A stretch of DNA of 59,134 nucleotides from an uncultured Mycoplasmatales bacterium (GCA_937936465.1 CALDDH010000001.1:1-59134), one strand, 5' to 3'. Counted from the stretch's first letter, positions 46,958 to 58,625 are shown. Notes: generated by a model not told the origin, from the letters alone. A program made the numbers and translations.

Positions 46958-48277
46958 ATGAAAAAAATTAAAAATATATTTAAAAAGAAAAATACAAAAG
47001 AAATAAAAAAAGAAGAAACAAATAAAGTCAAAAAGAAAAAAATTAAAAAAGAAATAAAAGTAAAAAATATTGAAAAAATTAAGTATAAAAAGAAAAAAGT
47101 TGATTTAAGAGCGAATAAAGTTGAAGAATTTGAAAAAGTTAATACGACTATTCAAGTTGAAGAAATAAATAAATCAAAGATAGAAAATAAGTCTAAAGAA
47201 GAACCAAGAATTAGAAGAAAGAAACATAATTTTAAAACTAAAAAAGTCCAAGAAGATTTAAATTTATTTGGAATCGATATTCAAGATGTAAAAATAGGTG
47301 ATAAAGTTAAAGTTAAAATTATTAAAGAAGAAATTGATTCATATATTGTTGGAATAGTTGGTAATTACAATGAGGCAATATTGAAAAAAGAAGAATTAAT
47401 AGATAAGGTATCAGTTGGACAAGAGATTGATGCTGTTATTTATTATTACTATGATCATATGTATCATGTTTCTCAATCAAGAATTGAATATTTCAATTCT
47501 CTTAATAGCTTAGAGGAAAAGATCGCAACAAAAGAAGTTGTAAGTGCTAAAGTTTTAAGTTACAAAAATTATAATTTTCATGTTTTAATTGATCAAAGAG
47601 TAAATGCAATGGTTTATATTAAAAATATCGATTTATCTTTTGTTAATAATCCAAATGCATATGTTGGTAAAACATTTGACTTCTTAGTAATTAAGAAATC
47701 TGATGATAAAAAATTTAAATTTGAATTATCACGAGTAGATTTACTATTAAAAGAACAAAGTGATATAATCGAAAACTTAGCTGTTGGAGATAAAATAGAA
47801 GTAAATAATTTGAATGTCAATAAAGGTGGTCTTGATTTTAGTTACAAAGGATTAAGAGGATTTATTCCAATGAGTGAAATATCATATCATTATATTAATG
47901 ATACAAATGATATTAAAGATTTAATTGATTTAGATGGTAATCAAGAAGTTGAAATAATTGAAATAAAAAAACAAAAATCAAGATTAGAAGTTGTTTGTTC
48001 AATTAAAAAAACTAAACCATCATTATTTAGTCAATTTATTGAAGTTCATAAGCCATTAGAAACTATTGAAGGTCAAATATTTGATGTAAGGAAATATGGA
48101 TTTATTATTGAATTTGAATTTCATCAAAGAGCATTATTACATGTTAATGAAATGAGCCAAGAAATGTCAGCAACAATCAAAGAATATAAGAAAAATGATT
48201 TAATTAATGTAATTATCAAAGATATTGATATTGAGAATGAAAAAATTTCATTAACAACTATTGCCGAAAGTGAGTAA
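46958..48277 (+). CDS. S1-repeat RNA-binding protein with Lys-rich N-terminus
   Basis: Product of 439 residues. The first 90 or so are dominated by Lys (FKKKNTKEIKKEETNKVKKK). Then come four S1-like OB repeats: IGDKVKVKIIKEEIDSYIVG, a degenerate second (EVVSAKVLSYKNYNFHVLI), a third AVGDKIEVNNLNVNKGGLDF with YKGLRGFIPMSEIS, and a fourth ETIEGQIFDVRKYGFIIEF with RALLHVNEM. This resembles ribosomal protein S1 homologues of Bacillota. ATG 46958 behind GAGAGG is preferred to ATG 46946. Confidence 0.85.
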   Translation: MKKIKNIFKKKNTKEIKKEETNKVKKKKIKKEIKVKNIEKIKYKKKKVDLRANKVEEFEKVNTTIQVEEINKSKIENKSKEEPRIRRKKHNFKTKKVQEDLNLFGIDIQDVKIGDKVKVKIIKEEIDSYIVGIVGNYNEAILKKEELIDKVSVGQEIDAVIYYYYDHMYHVSQSRIEYFNSLNSLEEKIATKEVVSAKVLSYKNYNFHVLIDQRVNAMVYIKNIDLSFVNNPNAYVGKTFDFLVIKKSDDKKFKFELSRVDLLLKEQSDIIENLAVGDKIEVNNLNVNKGGLDFSYKGLRGFIPMSEISYHYINDTNDIKDLIDLDGNQEVEIIEIKKQKSRLEVVCSIKKTKPSLFSQFIEVHKPLETIEGQIFDVRKYGFIIEFEFHQRALLHVNEMSQEMSATIKEYKKNDLINVIIKDIDIENEKISLTTIAESE

Positions 48278-48278
48278 A

Positions 48279-49055
48279 ATGAATGAAAAAATGAATATTG
48301 AAGAAACATTAAAAAATCGTCGATCATATCGTAATTATACTAATCAAAAAGTTGATTTGGATATTGTAAAAAATGCGATTATAAGTGCACAAAGAAGTGC
48401 TACTTCAGTTAATGGACAACAAATTAGTGTTGTTATAACAGAGGATCAAGATAAATTAAATAAAATGTCAGATATTAATTGGGGACAAAAAACTTTAAAA
48501 GAGTGTAGTGTCTTATTAACTTTTGTTGTTGATTATAACCGCTCTGATGAAATGGTTGAAGATGGAAAGATGATTCATCAAGATGATATTGAATCAGTTA
48601 TTGTTGGTGCTGTAGATGCTGGTTTAGTTGCACAAAGTGTTGAGCTTATTTTACAATCTAAAAAGATTGGAACTTGCATGATTGGTGGTATTAGACAAGA
48701 TATGAAGAAAGTGTCAGAAGTTCTGGGAATAACTGGTTTAGCATTTCCAGTATTTTCAATGACAGTTGGTTATCCAAAAGAATTTATGAATAAAGAAGAT
48801 GATATAAGACCAAGAGTTAATAAAGATTCATTTTTATTCATTGATCAGTACAATGAACAAAAAGTCCGCGATGGTGCTCAGGAATACAATTTAAATTTAA
48901 ATAAATGGTGGGAAAAAAGAGGATATACAGAGTATAATACATATAAAGATAGTATGAATAGGTTCTATAGTTCATATTATTTACCAAATGAATTTTCTGA
49001 ATTATTAGAAATGGGATTTTTAAGTAAATATGAGGAAAAAAATAGGAGAAACTAA
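48279..49055 (+). CDS. NfsA-like FMN nitroreductase
   Basis: Oxidoreductase of 258 residues: LKNRRSYRNYTNQKVDLDIVK and AQRSATSVNGQQISVVIT (FMN site), DAGLVAQSVELILQSKKIG, CMIGGIRQDMKKVSEVLG, FSMTVGYPKEFM. Longer than the NfsB-like protein at 10722 and of the NfsA/FRP branch that prefers NADPH. ATG 48279 is one base after the S1 gene stop with only GTGAG upstream, so the start is not certain (ATG 48291 is an alternative). Confidence 0.88.
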   Translation: MNEKMNIEETLKNRRSYRNYTNQKVDLDIVKNAIISAQRSATSVNGQQISVVITEDQDKLNKMSDINWGQKTLKECSVLLTFVVDYNRSDEMVEDGKMIHQDDIESVIVGAVDAGLVAQSVELILQSKKIGTCMIGGIRQDMKKVSEVLGITGLAFPVFSMTVGYPKEFMNKEDDIRPRVNKDSFLFIDQYNEQKVRDGAQEYNLNLNKWWEKRGYTEYNTYKDSMNRFYSSYYLPNEFSELLEMGFLSKYEEKNRRN

Positions 49056-50152
49056 TGATTAAGAAATTATTTATATTATTTATTATCATTGGAATTAGTT
49101 TGTTTTTCTTTAGTAATTCAAATATATTTTTCCAAATTACACATGATAAGTTAGAAATTGATCAAGCTAATGTTTATGGAGAAAGTTTAAATATTAGTTT
49201 TAATGATAGTTTTGAAAATAAAATTAATTTATATGATCAAAATGGTAATGTGTTTGATCAGGAAATTGAAACTAACGAAGAAATTGACCATGGTATAGAT
49301 CCGCTTGATATAAAAAGTGGTAAATATTTTTTATTAGATGAAAATGATCAATTATTGACTTCAGAAGAAGAAATTAATATAGATTACTATACTGTTACTA
49401 GAGATAATAAAAATTATAATATTAAATTAACTAATCCGCATGGATATTTAGAACTGGAAAAAAGTAAGGAAAAATTACCAGACGGATACTATGATATTTT
49501 AATTGATCCAGGTCATGGTGGACAAGATGTTGGCTCAACCGGTTCTCAAGGAGCAGAGGAATCAAATTTAAACCTAGAAGTTAGTCTGAAATTAAAATCT
49601 GAATTGGAAGAAATGGGTTATACTGTTGGATTAACAAGATCTGATGATTCTTTACCTGGTGATGAGTGTGATGGTATTTCATCATACTGTGAAAATGGAC
49701 GTGTATCACAGGCTTATGAGAAGCATGCAAGGTTATATATTTCATTACATCATAACACTGGTGGAGGAAGTGGATTTGAAGTTTATTCATCACTGCATTC
49801 ATCAGATGATTTAGCAAGTGAGATAGTCAATCAATTATCAACTGAGTTAACTCCATCATCAAAAGAAACTGGAATGATAGACTTAGGTTTATATAACTAC
49901 ACATTTTATGATGAAGAATATATGTTTGAAAGTGATTATTATTATGTAATTCGTGAAACAGGTGGATTAGCAACAAAAGGAACATCAGAAGAAAATTTAA
50001 CTAGAAGTCAATCTCCAGTTGGATCTGAAAGTATTTTAATTGAACTAGGATACATTGATAATTTAAAGGATGAATCATTTCATAGTAGTCAAGAAGTTCA
50101 ATCACTAGAAGCTAATTTAATTGCAAAAGCAATTGATAGTTATTTAAATTAA
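49055..50152 (+). CDS. N-acetylmuramoyl-L-alanine amidase (Amidase_3)
   Basis: Cell-wall hydrolase of 365 residues. An N-terminal membrane helix (4-22) is followed by an external linker domain (about 25-145) and a catalytic domain. Zinc ligands are ILIDPGHGGQD (His), GAEESNLN (Glu) and YISLHHNTGG (His). The catalytic Glu is in ILIELGYIDN. The active-site loop carries DECDGISSYCENGR with two Cys that could form a disulfide. Overlaps the nitroreductase stop by one base. Confidence 0.93.
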   Translation: MIKKLFILFIIIGISLFFFSNSNIFFQITHDKLEIDQANVYGESLNISFNDSFENKINLYDQNGNVFDQEIETNEEIDHGIDPLDIKSGKYFLLDENDQLLTSEEEINIDYYTVTRDNKNYNIKLTNPHGYLELEKSKEKLPDGYYDILIDPGHGGQDVGSTGSQGAEESNLNLEVSLKLKSELEEMGYTVGLTRSDDSLPGDECDGISSYCENGRVSQAYEKHARLYISLHHNTGGGSGFEVYSSLHSSDDLASEIVNQLSTELTPSSKETGMIDLGLYNYTFYDEEYMFESDYYYVIRETGGLATKGTSEENLTRSQSPVGSESILIELGYIDNLKDESFHSSQEVQSLEANLIAKAIDSYLN

Positions 50153-50560: not shown

Positions 50561-51697
50561 ATGATAAAAAAAATTATGTTTGTATGTGTTTCAATTGTTA
50601 TATTATATAGTAGTAGTTTAAATTTGTTGGCAGATCAAAAAAGTGAACATATAATTACTACATGTAAAGATTTAGAGAGTATTGGACATGGAGAAAACTA
50701 TTTAGGGGCAACTCATGATGAAGCATGGGCATTGTCTGATGATTATATAGTTGTAAATAATATTGACTGTTCTGCAACTAATCCCAATAATTCCAACCAC
50801 GACACTACGCCTGAAAATACCTATGGATCAGATGGATTTGAATCGATTGGTACAGAAGAAAATCCATTTACAGGAACATTTAATGGACAAATGAATACAA
50901 TTAATAATTTATATATAAATGTTGTAGAAAATTATTTTGAACAAGGTTTATTTGGATATGTCAGTGGTGGTCAAATAACTAATATCAATATGGTTAATGT
51001 TGATATATCAGGTTGGGTTAAAGTTGGCTCAATTGCTGGTAATGCTGTTAATGGAACATCAATTTCTAATTGTGCTGTTCAAGGGGTTGTTAATGGGCAT
51101 GCTGAAACAGGTGGGATTGTTGGTATTATGAGAAGTGGATCAATAGACAATGTTTATTTTAATGGAACAGTATCAAGCGGTGCACATTTAGGTGGAATTG
51201 TTGGGTGGATACAAAATTCTATAATCTCTAATTCATATAGCACAGGTGAAGTTAAATCTGTAGCAAATAATTATGAACCAATGGGAGGACTAGTTGGATC
51301 AACTATTGGTGATATGACCATTTCAAATAGTTATTCATCATCTGATGTTACGGGGATGTATGTTTCAGATGGGACAATAGGAGGATTAGTAGGACTAAAT
51401 GAGGACAATTTACAATTGATAAATAGTTATAGTTATGAAGATCAAGTTATTACAAGTAATGGAGAAAGTAATATTGTAGATGAGAGTTCAATTATAGGAG
51501 CAGGCGATGAAAAAGTAAATGGTAGTTTAAATATATGTACAAAGGATAATATTTCTAATATTAATAATTGGTATACAGATGTATTGAAATGGGATACAGA
51601 TAATATTTGGGATGTTGGAATTCAAGGAAGTAATGGTAATATAATATATCCTCATTTTAAAAATATGGATAATCAAATAAATAAAGATATTGAATAA
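50561..51697 (+). CDS. Secreted GLUG-repeat surface protein
   Basis: Product of 378 residues with a signal peptide (about 1-25, ending NLLA). A beta-solenoid follows with GLUG-type repeats: GLFGYVSGGQITNINMVNVD, VGSIAGNAVNGTSISNCAV, TGGIVGIMRSGSIDNVYFNG, LGGIVGWIQNSIISNSYSTG, and MGGLVGSTIGDMTISNSYSS. The lead-in FESIGTEENPFTGTFNGQM and NTINNLYI are typical. There is no LPxTG or C-terminal membrane helix, so it is probably released or held by non-covalent contacts. GLUG proteins are often adhesins or protease-like surface proteins; no peptidase domain is seen. GGGAG precedes the ATG. Confidence 0.85.
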   Translation: MIKKIMFVCVSIVILYSSSLNLLADQKSEHIITTCKDLESIGHGENYLGATHDEAWALSDDYIVVNNIDCSATNPNNSNHDTTPENTYGSDGFESIGTEENPFTGTFNGQMNTINNLYINVVENYFEQGLFGYVSGGQITNINMVNVDISGWVKVGSIAGNAVNGTSISNCAVQGVVNGHAETGGIVGIMRSGSIDNVYFNGTVSSGAHLGGIVGWIQNSIISNSYSTGEVKSVANNYEPMGGLVGSTIGDMTISNSYSSSDVTGMYVSDGTIGGLVGLNEDNLQLINSYSYEDQVITSNGESNIVDESSIIGAGDEKVNGSLNICTKDNISNINNWYTDVLKWDTDNIWDVGIQGSNGNIIYPHFKNMDNQINKDIE

Positions 51698-51709
51698 TAT
51701 GATAAAATA

Positions 51710-51732
51710 AAATTCTTAATTGAATTTTTTTT
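51710..51732 (+). terminator. Terminator of the GLUG-protein gene
   Basis: AAATTC/GAATTT stem with loop TTAATT, then T run; AT-rich and short. Confidence 0.55.
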
Positions 51733-51739
51733 ATATCTT

Positions 51740-51766
51740 TGTTATAATATGAATAAGCGTTCATAT
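51740..51766 (+). promoter_or_regulatory. Promoter and ArsR/SmtB-type operator of the arsR-MATE-gshF operon
   Basis: Extended -10 TG-T-TATAAT (51740-51748) overlaps ATATGAATAAGCGTTCATAT (51747-51766). That is a perfect inverted repeat with 7-base arms (ATATGAA/TTCATAT) and 6-base centre. TGAA-N6-TTCA is the half-site arrangement of SmtB/CzrA/ArsR operators. It would cover the transcription start and give autoregulation. Confidence 0.8.
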
Positions 51767-51798
51767 GAATGAATAGGAATATAAAATGTGAGGTATTA

Positions 51799-52074
51799 AT
51801 GGAAAACAAAATTAATTTATTTAAGTTATTAAGTACAAATTCAAGGTATTTAATTTTTACAGCATTAATAGAACAAGAGTTATGTATTTGTGAAATTGAA
51901 GAGTTAGTTGGTCTAACCCAGTCAAATGCATCAAAACAAATGAATATATTTAAACAATTAAATATTGTTACACAAAGAACAAGTGGTCCACATAAGTTTT
52001 ACAAAATCAATAATCAATTTATAATTGAAAATAAAAAGTTAATTGATTATATAAAGGATACAGATGATAAGTAA
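51799..52074 (+). CDS. arsR: ArsR-family repressor with ELCxC metal(loid) site
   Basis: Winged-helix repressor of 91 residues: STNSRYLIFTALIEQELCICEIEELVGLTQSNASKQMNIFKQL and the wing VTQRTSGPHKFYKI. Cys29 and Cys31 in ELCICE match the alpha-3 ELCVCDL site of ArsR and CadC, which binds As(III)/Sb(III) or Cd/Pb and releases DNA. The third Cys of E. coli ArsR (position +3) is Glu here. ATG 51799 behind GAGG is preferred to ATG 51769, which would lie in the operator-proximal leader. Overlaps the MATE gene by 11 bases. Confidence 0.88.
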   Translation: MENKINLFKLLSTNSRYLIFTALIEQELCICEIEELVGLTQSNASKQMNIFKQLNIVTQRTSGPHKFYKINNQFIIENKKLIDYIKDTDDK

Positions 52075-53419
52075 ATATTTTAAATCAGAAGAGTATATTT
52101 TCAATATCTTTTGGCCAATTGCTATTTCAATGTTTCTACAAACAGTTATAGCGCTAATTGATACTTTAATTTTAAGTTATTATTCAATTGATGCATTTAC
52201 TGGTGTAAGTGTTGCTTCGCAAGTAACAGCAATTATAGGACCAATGTATTTTGGAGTCCTAAGTGCTTTATCAATTTATACATCACAGTCAATTGGTAAT
52301 AATGACTCAAAAAGAATAAGGCAAATATTTGGACTTGGTATTATTATTATGAGTATCATGTCGATTGTAAGTGTTATATTGATGGTAACTTTAAATGATC
52401 AAATAATTGGTTTTTATGCAGAGTTAAATAGCGTTATGGGTGCTAATGCATTAATTTATTTAAATTGGACAATGCCAGCTAAACTATTTTGGCCAATCTC
52501 AATGTTATTTATGTTTCAATTTAGAGCAATTAAAGAAACTAAAATACCAATGTATATTAATAGTGGTATGTTAGTTTTAAATAGTGTTTTAAGTTTAATA
52601 TTAGTATATGGAATTGGATTTTTTCCAGAACTTGGAATAATTGGAGTTGCGGTTGCAACAGATTTAAGTATAATTGGTGTAGTTATTGTTTATATTTATG
52701 TTTGTTTTAAAAAAAAAATTATATTCTTTAATAACTTTGCTGATTTAATTGACTTTGATTATCCATTATTGAAAAAAATTTTAATTAAGGCGGCACCATT
52801 AGTATTAGTTGAATTTTTATTTGGTTTTGCAAGAACCTTGTATATAAAGATGTATATTGATTATTCTCCAATAATTTTCGCACTAGATAAATTAGCTACA
52901 TCAATTGTCTTTACGATTAATGGTCTTGTAATGGGAACAGCTGCATCTGTAGGAGTAGTATTTGGGGAAGCCTTAGGGAAAGATTCTGAAGAAACACTTG
53001 AAAAAAATCGGAAAATGTCTTTTTCTTTTATTAAAAAGATGACAGCATTAATTTTAATTATAAGCATTTGTATTTTACCTTTATTTATATTATTATTTCA
53101 AGTTGAAGATTTAAAAAGTATTAATAATTATTTTTTGATTATGTACTGTTTAATTATAATTAATGGAATATATATGTCAATTAGAATTTGGTCATCATCA
53201 TTCGTATCTATTTTACGTAGTGGAGGAGATACAAATTTTATAATTTTAGCAGATCCAATTTCCTCATACTTAGTAGGTCTACCATTAACATTTATTGCTA
53301 TCTATTTTCTAGATGTTAATTTCTTAATTATCAAATCTCTGTGGATAACAGAAGTAGTTGGTAAACTATTAATATCATATTATCGTTACAAACAAAAAAA
53401 ATGGATGAGAAAGGTTTAA
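52064..53419 (+). CDS. MATE-family efflux transporter
   Basis: Product of 451 residues with about 12 membrane helices in two homologous halves. The first half opens FNIFWPIAISMFLQTVIAL with DTLILSYYSIDAFTGVSVASQ; the second opens ILIKAAPLVLVEFLFGFAR with DKLATSIVFTINGLVMGTAAS. MATE proteins expel cationic drugs or conjugates using Na+ or H+. Location between an ArsR and GshF genes suggests the cargo is a thiophilic toxicant or its glutathione conjugate, which is inference. The gene starts inside arsR, and its stop is one base from gshF. Confidence 0.92.
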   Translation: MISKYFKSEEYIFNIFWPIAISMFLQTVIALIDTLILSYYSIDAFTGVSVASQVTAIIGPMYFGVLSALSIYTSQSIGNNDSKRIRQIFGLGIIIMSIMSIVSVILMVTLNDQIIGFYAELNSVMGANALIYLNWTMPAKLFWPISMLFMFQFRAIKETKIPMYINSGMLVLNSVLSLILVYGIGFFPELGIIGVAVATDLSIIGVVIVYIYVCFKKKIIFFNNFADLIDFDYPLLKKILIKAAPLVLVEFLFGFARTLYIKMYIDYSPIIFALDKLATSIVFTINGLVMGTAASVGVVFGEALGKDSEETLEKNRKMSFSFIKKMTALILIISICILPLFILLFQVEDLKSINNYFLIMYCLIIINGIYMSIRIWSSSFVSILRSGGDTNFIILADPISSYLVGLPLTFIAIYFLDVNFLIIKSLWITEVVGKLLISYYRYKQKKWMRKV

Positions 53420-53420
53420 G

Positions 53421-55508
53421 ATGAAAATTAATGACGTACAAATTGCAATTGAAAAAGAAAGTTTAGTTTATAAAGAGAACTGGGATAATGCAAATTTCAA
53501 GTTAGATGATTTACATCCACAAATGGAAATAGATTTTGCTAATAATCAAATGGAAATAATAAGTAGTATAAATGATTGTGAATATTGTTTAACTCGTGAA
53601 TTGAAATCAATACAAAACCAAAGTGTTTTGCAAAATAAAATCATATGGCCATTTTCAATAGCTCCAACACATAAGCAAGTATATAATTATGATTTAAAAG
53701 ATTATACATATCGTAAATATTTATTGGATAAATATGGACAAGAAAAAATGCTGATGAGTGGTATTCATTATAACTATAGTAATGATTTACTTAAAACACA
53801 AGCTGATTATTTTGATTTACTTAAGAAAAGCTATGAGTTCTTACCAATCTTAATTCAATTTATTTCTTTTTCTCCATATTTAAATGAAAATTTATTAGGA
53901 CTTGAAAAGTTTGGAAATAGTTATGGATTAAAAGATGCTATTAGTCTAAGAAATTCAATTGAATATGGTTATTCAAATGAACAATTCTTAGAACTTCAAT
54001 ATCATGATTTAAATGTTTATAATACATCAATAGAAGATGCAGTTGATAATAATTTAATTATAAATAATCGTGAAGTATATTCAAAGATTAGATTAAAAGA
54101 TGGTTATATTGAACTAAGAGCAATTGATTTAAACCCTTTTAGTAAAGTAGGAATTACAAAAGATATTATTTTATTAATTAAATTATTTTTTAATTACTTA
54201 AGTAAAACCGAAAATATTATACAAGTAGATGAAGATAATTGGTTGAAAAACATTGATTTAGTTACTTTAAAAGGTCAAGATAAAACAAATAAGTTAATTA
54301 TAAATAATCAAGATAAAACTATTCATGATCATACAGTCGACTTTTTAAACATATTAATAGAAAAAGAGTGTTATGATGAATCAGAAAAAGATGTCATAAA
54401 TAAATTGAAAATGAACTACATAAATAATAAATTAGATATAAATACATTAATTGAAGGACTAGCTGATTCACAATATTCATATGACAAATATTATCCAAAA
54501 ATTAAGAAATTAAATAATAATGATAAGTTCGCTTTATATCCAAATCTAAAGATGGAATTATCAACTAAATTAATTATTAAAGAAGCAGAAAAGCGTGGTT
54601 ATCAAGTTGAGATTGAATCTGAATCTGATAATATTATTAAAGTTAGTCACAATAATCATTTTGAATATATAATTCAAGGATCTAAAACTAATTCTGATAC
54701 ATATGCTAATGTTTTATTAATGAACAATAAATATATGACAAAGAAAATACTTGATGAAGTAAATATTAATACTCCAAAAGGAATTTTAATAAATAAAGAT
54801 AGTAAGTTAGATCTTGATCTCTATCTTAATAAAGATGTCGTAATTAAACCACTTGATACAAATTTTGGTCAAGGAATTAAGATTTTTAAAGTTAACAATA
54901 TATTACAGTTAGAAAAAGAAATCAAGAAGTCATTGGAAGATCAAGATGTCTTGATTTTAGAGGAGTATATTAAAGGTGAAGAATTTAGATTCCTAGTTAT
55001 TGATAATCAATTAGTTAGTATTTTAACCCGAAAAAATGCAAGTGTAATTGCCGATGGTATTCATAGTATTGAAAAGTTAATAGAAATAAAAAATCATTCT
55101 TCAATGCGAGGGACTAATTATCAAAAACCCCTGGAAAAAATTATTATTGATGATGACTTGTTAAATAATTTAAAAGAAAAAAATTATCAGTTATCTGATG
55201 TTATTAAAAGAGGAGAAAAAATAAACCTTAGAAAAGCATCAAACGTATCTCAAGGTGGAGATACACATGAAGTATTAGAAAAAATACCTGATTTTTATAA
55301 AAAAATTGCTTTGCAAGCTGCAAAACAATTAAATGTAAAAATTACAGGTATTGATATGATTATTGATATGGATAGAATAAATGAAAATAATTATTCTATC
55401 TTAGAAGCTAACTTTAATCCAGCATTACATATTCACACATTCCCTTATAAAGGAATTGGTAAAAATGTTGCTGAAAATATATTAGATTTATTATTTGAAA
55501 AACTATAA
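53421..55508 (+). CDS. gshF: Bifunctional glutamate-cysteine ligase/glutathione synthetase
   Basis: Two-domain enzyme of 695 residues making glutathione from Glu, Cys and Gly; slightly shorter than most GshF (about 750). The ligase half has the family pattern: EKESLVYKENW, MEIDFANNQMEIISS, IIWPFSIAP, YRKYLLDKYGQEKMLMSGIH with HYNYS, and LRNSIEYGYS. The ATP-grasp half has VVIKPLDTNFGQGIKIF, ILEEYIKGEEFRFLVID, SQGGDTHEVLEKIP, ITGIDMIIDMD and ILEANFNPALHIHTFPYKG. AAAGG in the MATE end serves as ribosome binding site. It ends in a six-base convergent overlap with the aminopeptidase gene. Confidence 0.93.
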   Translation: MKINDVQIAIEKESLVYKENWDNANFKLDDLHPQMEIDFANNQMEIISSINDCEYCLTRELKSIQNQSVLQNKIIWPFSIAPTHKQVYNYDLKDYTYRKYLLDKYGQEKMLMSGIHYNYSNDLLKTQADYFDLLKKSYEFLPILIQFISFSPYLNENLLGLEKFGNSYGLKDAISLRNSIEYGYSNEQFLELQYHDLNVYNTSIEDAVDNNLIINNREVYSKIRLKDGYIELRAIDLNPFSKVGITKDIILLIKLFFNYLSKTENIIQVDEDNWLKNIDLVTLKGQDKTNKLIINNQDKTIHDHTVDFLNILIEKECYDESEKDVINKLKMNYINNKLDINTLIEGLADSQYSYDKYYPKIKKLNNNDKFALYPNLKMELSTKLIIKEAEKRGYQVEIESESDNIIKVSHNNHFEYIIQGSKTNSDTYANVLLMNNKYMTKKILDEVNINTPKGILINKDSKLDLDLYLNKDVVIKPLDTNFGQGIKIFKVNNILQLEKEIKKSLEDQDVLILEEYIKGEEFRFLVIDNQLVSILTRKNASVIADGIHSIEKLIEIKNHSSMRGTNYQKPLEKIIIDDDLLNNLKEKNYQLSDVIKRGEKINLRKASNVSQGGDTHEVLEKIPDFYKKIALQAAKQLNVKITGIDMIIDMDRINENNYSILEANFNPALHIHTFPYKGIGKNVAENILDLLFEKL

Positions 55509-57182: not shown

Positions 57183-58625
57183 ATGAATATTACGGATAAA
57201 AATGCAAAAGAAATTTTTATATATGAAAAAGAAAGTACATTCTTAGATTTTAAAATGGAATATATTATTAATAAAAAGAACTCAAATAATATAGTGAAAG
57301 ATATAATGAGTTTTGCAAACTGTCATGAAGAAGGGGATAAAAATATTGTTATTGGGATAAAAGAAATCATAGGTAAAAATGATAATTTAATTCATGGTAA
57401 TAATGAAAAAATTGATATATCAAACATAGAAAATTTAATTCATTCAAATATAGAGCCAGAAATAAAAATAGAATTAAAGGAGTTTAATATTGATGAAAAA
57501 AATATATCAGTAATTATAATAAAAAGAGAAAATTATAAGCATAGACCATTTTTAATGAAAAAAAAAACAGATAAATACTTTGAAGGTCAAGGATTTATAA
57601 GGAAAGGTGCGTCTAATAGAAGTTTTGTAAGAGATGATTTTATTAGAATACAAAAAACAGATAAATATAATGGTGAAATTACCCTTCATCTTTTTGATGA
57701 AAACAAAAATGATTATAATATTGAGTTGGAAGAAAATAAAAATGAATTAGAAAAATTAATAGTAAAATTCAATACATATATGAAAAAATTAAATGGAATT
57801 AAAAAACAACAAATTCATGAAAAAGAAGCTAAATCTTCTGAGGTTGAAAATTCAATATATAATTCAATACTAGGTTCATTAAATGAACAAAACAAAAACC
57901 CTTTGGATATGTTTCAGTCTGATTATGAAATATCAGATGAACGAATTATAAAATTAGAAAGAATGATACCGAGAAATTCAATTCCTAATATGAGAATTCC
58001 ATTATTAAAATGTAAAAAAGAATTTGGTGGAGGGCCTTTGGGAACAGAATTATATATAAGTGAAATTTTTTCACATTACAGTGAAGCAGAAGAAGCATAT
58101 GATATCTTTAAAAACATTGAATATCTTATAGGGGAAATTGAAGTGGAATCATATTTCAATGGTAAAGAAGCAAAATTATTCTATTTAACAACAACAAATA
58201 ATGCAACTAATATTGAAATTCACATTAATAATTTTAAAATATCATATTCTATTGATAATATTGAACAGATAATTGAAAAGATAGAGTCTGAAATGATGAA
58301 AATAGTGAAAGTTTTAAATATTAAAACATTTAAAGAAGAAGTAGATATTGTAAAAGACCAGAGGCGTAGAGAATTAAATAAATTACCAACTTATTATAAT
58401 AATTTTGAAGGAGAAAAAAATTTTGATGATTTAGTATATTGTTTTGAACCATTTGATAATACTGAATATGACTATGAACAAGAACTACTAACATTAAAAA
58501 TTTCTAAGATGAACAAAAATGAAAAAATATTTTTACCCTATTATTTATTTATTAATGAAAAAATGGAATTTCATATATCTTCATCTTTTGGAGAAAGTAC
58601 AGGTCTTTTAAATAATATAAATTAA
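57183..58625 (+). CDS. AlbA_2/Schlafen-domain protein, possible defence gene
   Basis: Product of 480 residues. The first 160 match an AlbA_2 (Schlafen-type) domain: ESTFLDFKMEYIINKKN, KDIMSFANCHEEGDKNIVIGIKE, then RPFLMKKKTDKYFEGQGFIRKGASNR, ending in the typical RKG-S turn. The rest is unrecognised, with GGGPLGTELYISEIFSH and an acidic end. It is even more A-rich and Lys/Glu/Asn-rich than its neighbours and sits between a tRNA gene and an IS element, which suggests acquisition by transfer. AlbA_2 proteins include defence and regulatory NTPases, but the usual ATPase domain is not obvious here. AAAGGAG precedes the ATG. Confidence 0.75.
   Translation: MNITDKNAKEIFIYEKESTFLDFKMEYIINKKNSNNIVKDIMSFANCHEEGDKNIVIGIKEIIGKNDNLIHGNNEKIDISNIENLIHSNIEPEIKIELKEFNIDEKNISVIIIKRENYKHRPFLMKKKTDKYFEGQGFIRKGASNRSFVRDDFIRIQKTDKYNGEITLHLFDENKNDYNIELEENKNELEKLIVKFNTYMKKLNGIKKQQIHEKEAKSSEVENSIYNSILGSLNEQNKNPLDMFQSDYEISDERIIKLERMIPRNSIPNMRIPLLKCKKEFGGGPLGTELYISEIFSHYSEAEEAYDIFKNIEYLIGEIEVESYFNGKEAKLFYLTTTNNATNIEIHINNFKISYSIDNIEQIIEKIESEMMKIVKVLNIKTFKEEVDIVKDQRRRELNKLPTYYNNFEGEKNFDDLVYCFEPFDNTEYDYEQELLTLKISKMNKNEKIFLPYYLFINEKMEFHISSSFGESTGLLNNIN

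Follow-up and report, generated by a model that had tools for sequence, protein, structure and literature searches.

Bacterial ars operons, such as those of the arsRBC, arsR-acr3-arsC and arsRB types, begin with a gene of the ArsR family, carry an inverted repeat at their own promoter and encode an exporter downstream. Among other members of the ArsR/SmtB family, CadC-type cadmium and lead sensors have extra N-terminal cysteine ligands besides a CxC pair, and zinc sensors of the SmtB/CzrA type use aspartate and histidine ligands in a C-terminal helix; in eukaryotes, conjugates of glutathione are exported by ABC pumps. The R773-type (Type 1) ArsR coordinates As(III) through three ligands, Cys32, Cys34 and Cys37, and ArArsR has no equivalent of Cys37 (PMC11868830). 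The arsRB arrangement of Terribacillus is an ars operon without arsC (PMC8755942), and a survey that covered over 700 transporters of ars operons recorded ArsY/Acr3, ArsB, ArsP, MFS, MIP, ABC and rarer types, with no MATE protein (PMC4435449). Exiguobacterium strongly raises the expression of gshAB in response to As(III) and As(V) (PMC7374977).

We have analysed a stretch of 59,134 nucleotides from an uncultured Mycoplasmatales bacterium (GCA_937936465.1, CALDDH010000001.1:1-59134), here called the window, in which arsR is followed by genes for a MATE-family transporter and for GshF. The locus shares with ars operons the three features given above, but its exporter is a MATE protein rather than ArsB or Acr3, and its third gene encodes an enzyme of glutathione synthesis. 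A first-pass annotation had known of no ars-type operon with this trio; our literature search, with most subscription journals outside its scope, likewise found no published description of an arsR-MATE-gshF association, and the transporter survey points the same way. On balance we think that this is probably an ars-like detoxification operon directed against As(III), Sb(III) or another agent that reacts with thiols in a similar way, in which glutathione would serve as the ligand and the MATE protein as the exporter.

Organization of the operon

All features of the operon lie on the plus strand. A consensus scan and inspection of the sequence locate a sigma-A type promoter at 51720..51748 (TTGAAT-N17-TATAAT with an extended -10 TG), the -35 TTGAAT beginning at 51720 and the -10 TATAAT occupying 51743-51748 with the TG directly 5' of it. 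On the 3' side of this promoter, positions 51747-51766 (ATATGAATAAGCGTTCATAT) form a perfect 20-bp inverted repeat, ATATGAA-N6-TTCATAT, which is the putative ArsR operator; it is the single exact site in the window and was found in none of 100 shuffles. The core at its centre, TGAA-N6-TTCA (51750-51763), is not in itself rare in such an AT-rich window, with six found and 4.35 expected. The first-pass annotation had set a TGAA-N6-TTCA operator over the extended -10, and while the perfect repeat is present, its overlap with the -10 is confined to the final two bases, and it lies mostly over the expected transcription start.

The arsR gene (51799..52074, 91 aa) is taken to begin at ATG 51799, with a longer in-frame ORF beginning at 51769. 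As the first reading of the locus had described, the MATE gene (52064..53419, 451 aa) starts inside arsR, its ATG at 52064 and the arsR stop codon at 52072-52074 giving an overlap of 11 nt, and gshF (53421..55508, 695 aa) starts at ATG 53421, one base past the MATE stop codon at 53417-53419. The three genes thus constitute one overlapping operon behind one promoter, and by eye each is preceded by a plausible ribosome-binding site. A convergent M29 peptidase gene 3' of gshF closes the unit; a terminator was sought after gshF and none was found.

Just 5' of the operon (50561-51697) is a gene for a secreted-looking protein with GLUG repeats that resembles the N-terminal region of M26 proteases, and before it (48261-50152) are genes for an NfsA-like nitroreductase and then a cell-wall amidase (Amidase_3). 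At 57183-58625 the window encodes a protein with a Schlafen/AlbA_2 domain and a C-terminal part without assignment.

The ArsR repressor

Profile matches and alignment place the 91-residue product in the ArsR/SmtB family: it scores 61.5 bits against NCBIfam NF033788 (cut-off 55) and also exceeds the Pfam HTH_5 cut-off. It is the sole HTH_5 match in the genome to which the window belongs (G000, 87% complete), so that no other ArsR would compete for the operator site. The ELCxC motif reported earlier reads ELCIC, with Cys29 and Cys31 at the alpha3 position, and this CxC stands at the same place relative to the DNA-binding helices as in R773-type repressors. Position 34 is Glu, however, and the window protein has no Cys37 equivalent, as is also true of ArArsR (PMC11868830) and of the aligned relatives. 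No Cys precedes Cys29 anywhere in the protein and the C-terminal helix region (NNQFIIENKKLIDYIKDTDDK) contains no His; because the cysteines of CadC and the C-terminal histidine of SmtB-type sensors are both absent, the CxC pair is the likely sensor.

Across the ArsR alignment the first Cys is kept in 10 of 10 proteins and the second in nine of 10, and the window ArsR shares only 23-29% identity with the other proteins. Inverted repeats lie just 5' of arsR in the clusters of relatives too. We considered a single operator sequence common to the clusters and rejected it, each group having its own inverted repeat.

The GshF enzyme

The third gene encodes a predicted bifunctional gamma-glutamylcysteine ligase / glutathione synthetase (GshF or GshAB), with a score of 451.9 bits against NF002688 (cut-off 425) and the motifs of both halves kept. 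It aligns over its full length with the solved GshAB proteins 3ln6 and 3ln7, and like them it is a full-length fusion with its catalytic motifs retained: the metal-binding Glu pair, GIHYN, LRNS, ExRxxDxNPF and the C-terminal ExNFNP. Residues retained include Glu11, Glu13, Asp38, Glu45, His116, Arg177, Glu231, Arg233, Glu662 and Asn664. Where it departs from other GshF proteins is in its length of 695 aa, its long branch and its sequence at 24 of the 107 positions that are invariant in 17 others; since the remaining 83 and the catalytic motifs are kept, the enzyme is probably active. Its branch in GshF trees is very long and its exact origin accordingly uncertain, and a scan of genome contigs with GshF returned distant ATP-grasp proteins only, with no close relatives.

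Recurrence of the gene cluster in relatives and on plasmids

A search for GshF over 395 genomes of the class found about 17 with a full or nearly full protein, for which, along with a few partial ones, we read the gene neighbourhoods. Adjacency of arsR, MATE and gshF, a prediction attached to the first-pass annotation, does recur, often together with an arsenate reductase. The order ArsR-ArsC-MATE-GshF is present in G022, G046 and G034, all of family f11, and in G344 (f19), ArsR-GshF-ArsC-MATE in G028 (f17), and ArsC-MATE-GshF in G005 and G016 (f5); in G011 and G064 an ArsR, a CoA-disulfide-reductase-like protein, MATE and the C-terminal part of GshF are found together. In G198 (f9) the cluster is ArsR-Acr3-ArsC-GshF, the Acr3 passing the curated Acr3 model, and no MATE was matched anywhere in that genome, as though Acr3 and MATE could stand in for one another. 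Seven further genomes (G055, G002, G297, G073, G082, G153, G263) have gshF genes with no ars gene nearby.

The ArsC proteins of the relatives are low-molecular-weight (LMW) arsenate reductases whose best score is against TIGR02689, the glutathione/glutaredoxin type, although below its cut-off. This affinity would give GshF a second role in those clusters, as electron supplier, for which the Synechocystis arsenate reductase, with electrons supplied by glutathione, offers a parallel (PMC6205960).

Similar arrangements occur on plasmids and in more distant genomes. Plasmid pAZOPL1 of Paenibacillus lautus carries ArsR-trxB-MATE-gshAB directly 5' of arsR-arsR-arsB-arsC-arsD-arsA, and pBNS11 of Ligilactobacillus salivarius carries an ArsP-like permease (identified by eye), acr3, MATE and gshAB. 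Ilyobacter polytropus has MATE-gshAB without ars genes, and other plasmid gshAB genes are without MATE. In all, gshF-MATE(-ArsR) clusters are found in three places beside Acr3/ArsB or with replacement by one of these. The window operon and the ArsR-ArsC-MATE-GshF clusters of relatives and Bacillota plasmids, in which MATE and gshF often overlap, have the same three families in contiguous and co-directional genes, with a CxC ArsR; the window differs in having no ArsC, in the subfamily of its MATE protein, and in the absence of an arginine characteristic of the others.

Some of the gshF genes show alterations of their own. In G011 and G064 (L083, L084, L162, L163) the gene is split, with an N-terminal ligase half of 480-483 aa located elsewhere and a C-terminal part of about 625 aa remaining in the ArsR-MATE cluster. 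Directly past the intact gshF of the G046 ars cluster is a gshF-like fragment of 80-99 aa (L072 7878-8120).

The genome of the window and its sister

The MATE-gshF pair has persisted in the two genomes of the window's family, G000 and G001. In the latter, one contig (L067 1-3388) has Hsp33, an EamA-like transporter, MATE and the start of gshF at the contig end, and another (L068 1-5381) has the end of gshF and then a ZnuA-like, zinc-type ABC transporter unit; with stop codons near the contig end, this gshF may not be intact. No ArsR adjoins this pair, and the only ArsR-like match in G001 is elsewhere, so ArsR is not a fixed neighbour of MATE-gshF in the family. That ArsR-like gene (L069 1341-3017) keeps only the first Cys, is located 5' of broken-looking multicopper-oxidase-like frames, and carries an inverted repeat of its own, of the GAATATTC type.

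The absence of ArsB, Acr3 and ArsC from the operon was noted at first pass, and family searches of G000 (87% complete) found no ArsB, Acr3 or LMW-type ArsC either. With neither the exporter nor the reductase of a canonical ars operon, the locus should not be filed as one, and its arsenic link rests on the relatives. An operon that does without ArsC, as that of Terribacillus does, would fit a habitat where arsenite dominates.

Phylogeny of the MATE transporters

The window MATE belongs to its family by PF01554 (1.4e-24; 87.1 bits, cut-off 24.9) and keeps the conserved TM1 Asp33, and falls under the stricter cut-off of NCBIfam TIGR00797 (132 vs 147.4). A tree of 77 MATE proteins unites the nine from gshF clusters of relatives in one clade (100/99), with MATEs that do not adjoin gshF falling outside, and in a second tree with plasmid proteins added all twelve cluster MATEs are again one clade (SH-aLRT 95). 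The window MATE groups with the gshF-linked MATE of G001, and the two make up a clade of their own (100/100). Descent of the window protein from the ars-linked clade was rejected, an AU test rejecting the one-clade tree, with long branches noted; because the branches of the window pair are long its exact place is uncertain, while the separation is strong. The two clades imply that MATE and gshF were joined at least twice.

Members of the ars-linked clade have an invariant Arg252 and Lys278 (numbered on the L074 ORF), found in 1% and 3% of other MATEs respectively. These residues and the lack of a conserved Cys would suit a negatively charged substrate, for example a glutathione complex. The arginine signature is missing from the window MATE, which has Glu250 at that position. 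We also considered and rejected an As(III) site built from cysteines of the MATE proteins, there being no Cys conserved in the gshF-linked clade and none at all in the L. salivarius protein.

Discussion

In the ars-like reading that we favour, ArsR bound to the inverted repeat over the transcription start would keep arsR, MATE and gshF off until Cys29 and Cys31 capture a trivalent metalloid that reacts with thiols, As(III) or Sb(III) being the likeliest. ArsR would then be freed and all three genes derepressed; GshF would raise glutathione, complexing the metalloid and buffering oxidative damage, and MATE would carry the metalloid out, probably in the form of its glutathione complex or along with it. 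Comparison with other bacteria gives good support to the arsenic link of this type of operon; for the window copy the mechanism is inferred, including use of the operator, the ligand, the exported species, and a role like that of its relatives despite the other MATE subfamily. The ars-like reading draws on the operon anatomy, the promoter and its unique palindrome, the sole HTH_5 protein, recurrence in ars clusters, retention of CxC among the ArsRs, the induction of Exiguobacterium gshAB, and the joining of two MATE lineages to gshF. Against it are the lack of ArsC, Acr3 and ArsB, a MATE outside the ars-linked clade with Glu250, the G001 pair without ArsR, the missing third ArsR Cys and the 23-29% ArsR identity. 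The earlier proposal of metal(loid)-controlled glutathione synthesis and export is therefore supported for the operon type, in which gshF, MATE and ArsR recur, often with arsenate reductase and in three places with Acr3/ArsB alongside or substituted, but carries over only in part to the window copy, with its separate MATE, no ArsC, two of the three R773-type cysteines, and a sister pair that has no adjacent ArsR.

Cys29 and Cys31 could instead answer to another thiol-reactive or redox signal, such as cadmium, zinc or lead, hypochlorous stress or electrophiles, with glutathione as a general antioxidant, MATE expelling an organic toxin, and arsenic not the physiological trigger. The incomplete cysteine set, the position of the window MATE, the proximity of the G001 pair to Hsp33, a redox chaperone, with neither ArsC nor ArsR, and the lack of any arsenic-specific gene (LMW-type ArsC, Acr3, ArsB) found in the window's genome are all consistent with this; yet the ArsR lacks both the N-terminal cysteines of CadC and the C-terminal His/Asp helix of SmtB/CzrA, and similar ArsR-MATE-GshF units elsewhere come with ArsC, Acr3 or ArsB, and we regard such a signal as rather unlikely. 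More improbable still is that ArsR controls glutathione homeostasis only, with MATE exporting glutathione, gamma-glutamylcysteine or glutathione S-conjugates of organic electrophiles. MATE with gshF is the most constant pair, found also without ars genes in G001 and Ilyobacter, and the Arg and Lys of the gshF-linked MATEs, with no conserved Cys, suit an anionic substrate over a thiol-coordinated metalloid, but the pair occurs repeatedly inside arsenic clusters and the window MATE does not have the clade Arg.

It could also be that the three genes came to lie side by side by coincidence, with nothing but a transcript in common, as might happen in a small, AT-rich, reduced genome with tight gene packing, and ArsR has indeed not stayed in place in G001. 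However, MATE-gshF is kept in both family genomes and formed independently elsewhere, ArsR-MATE-GshF recurs, and, as G000 has only about three MATE genes, we estimate chance adjacency at about 1% or less; coincidence is thus a very poor explanation.

The ars-like reading also admits a broader and more tentative proposal, which we regard as possible but somewhat doubtful: that MATE proteins represent an additional class of arsenic (or antimony) exporter acting on glutathione complexes, one clade accompanying gshF and ArsR/ArsC across Bacillota and Fusobacteriota, and the window lineage having rebuilt ArsR-MATE-GshF from another subfamily. If this is true, a single repressor would turn on the pump together with its ligand, glutathione, in a self-contained bacterial counterpart of the export of glutathione conjugates by eukaryotic ABC pumps, and MATE would be added to the known types of ars transporter.
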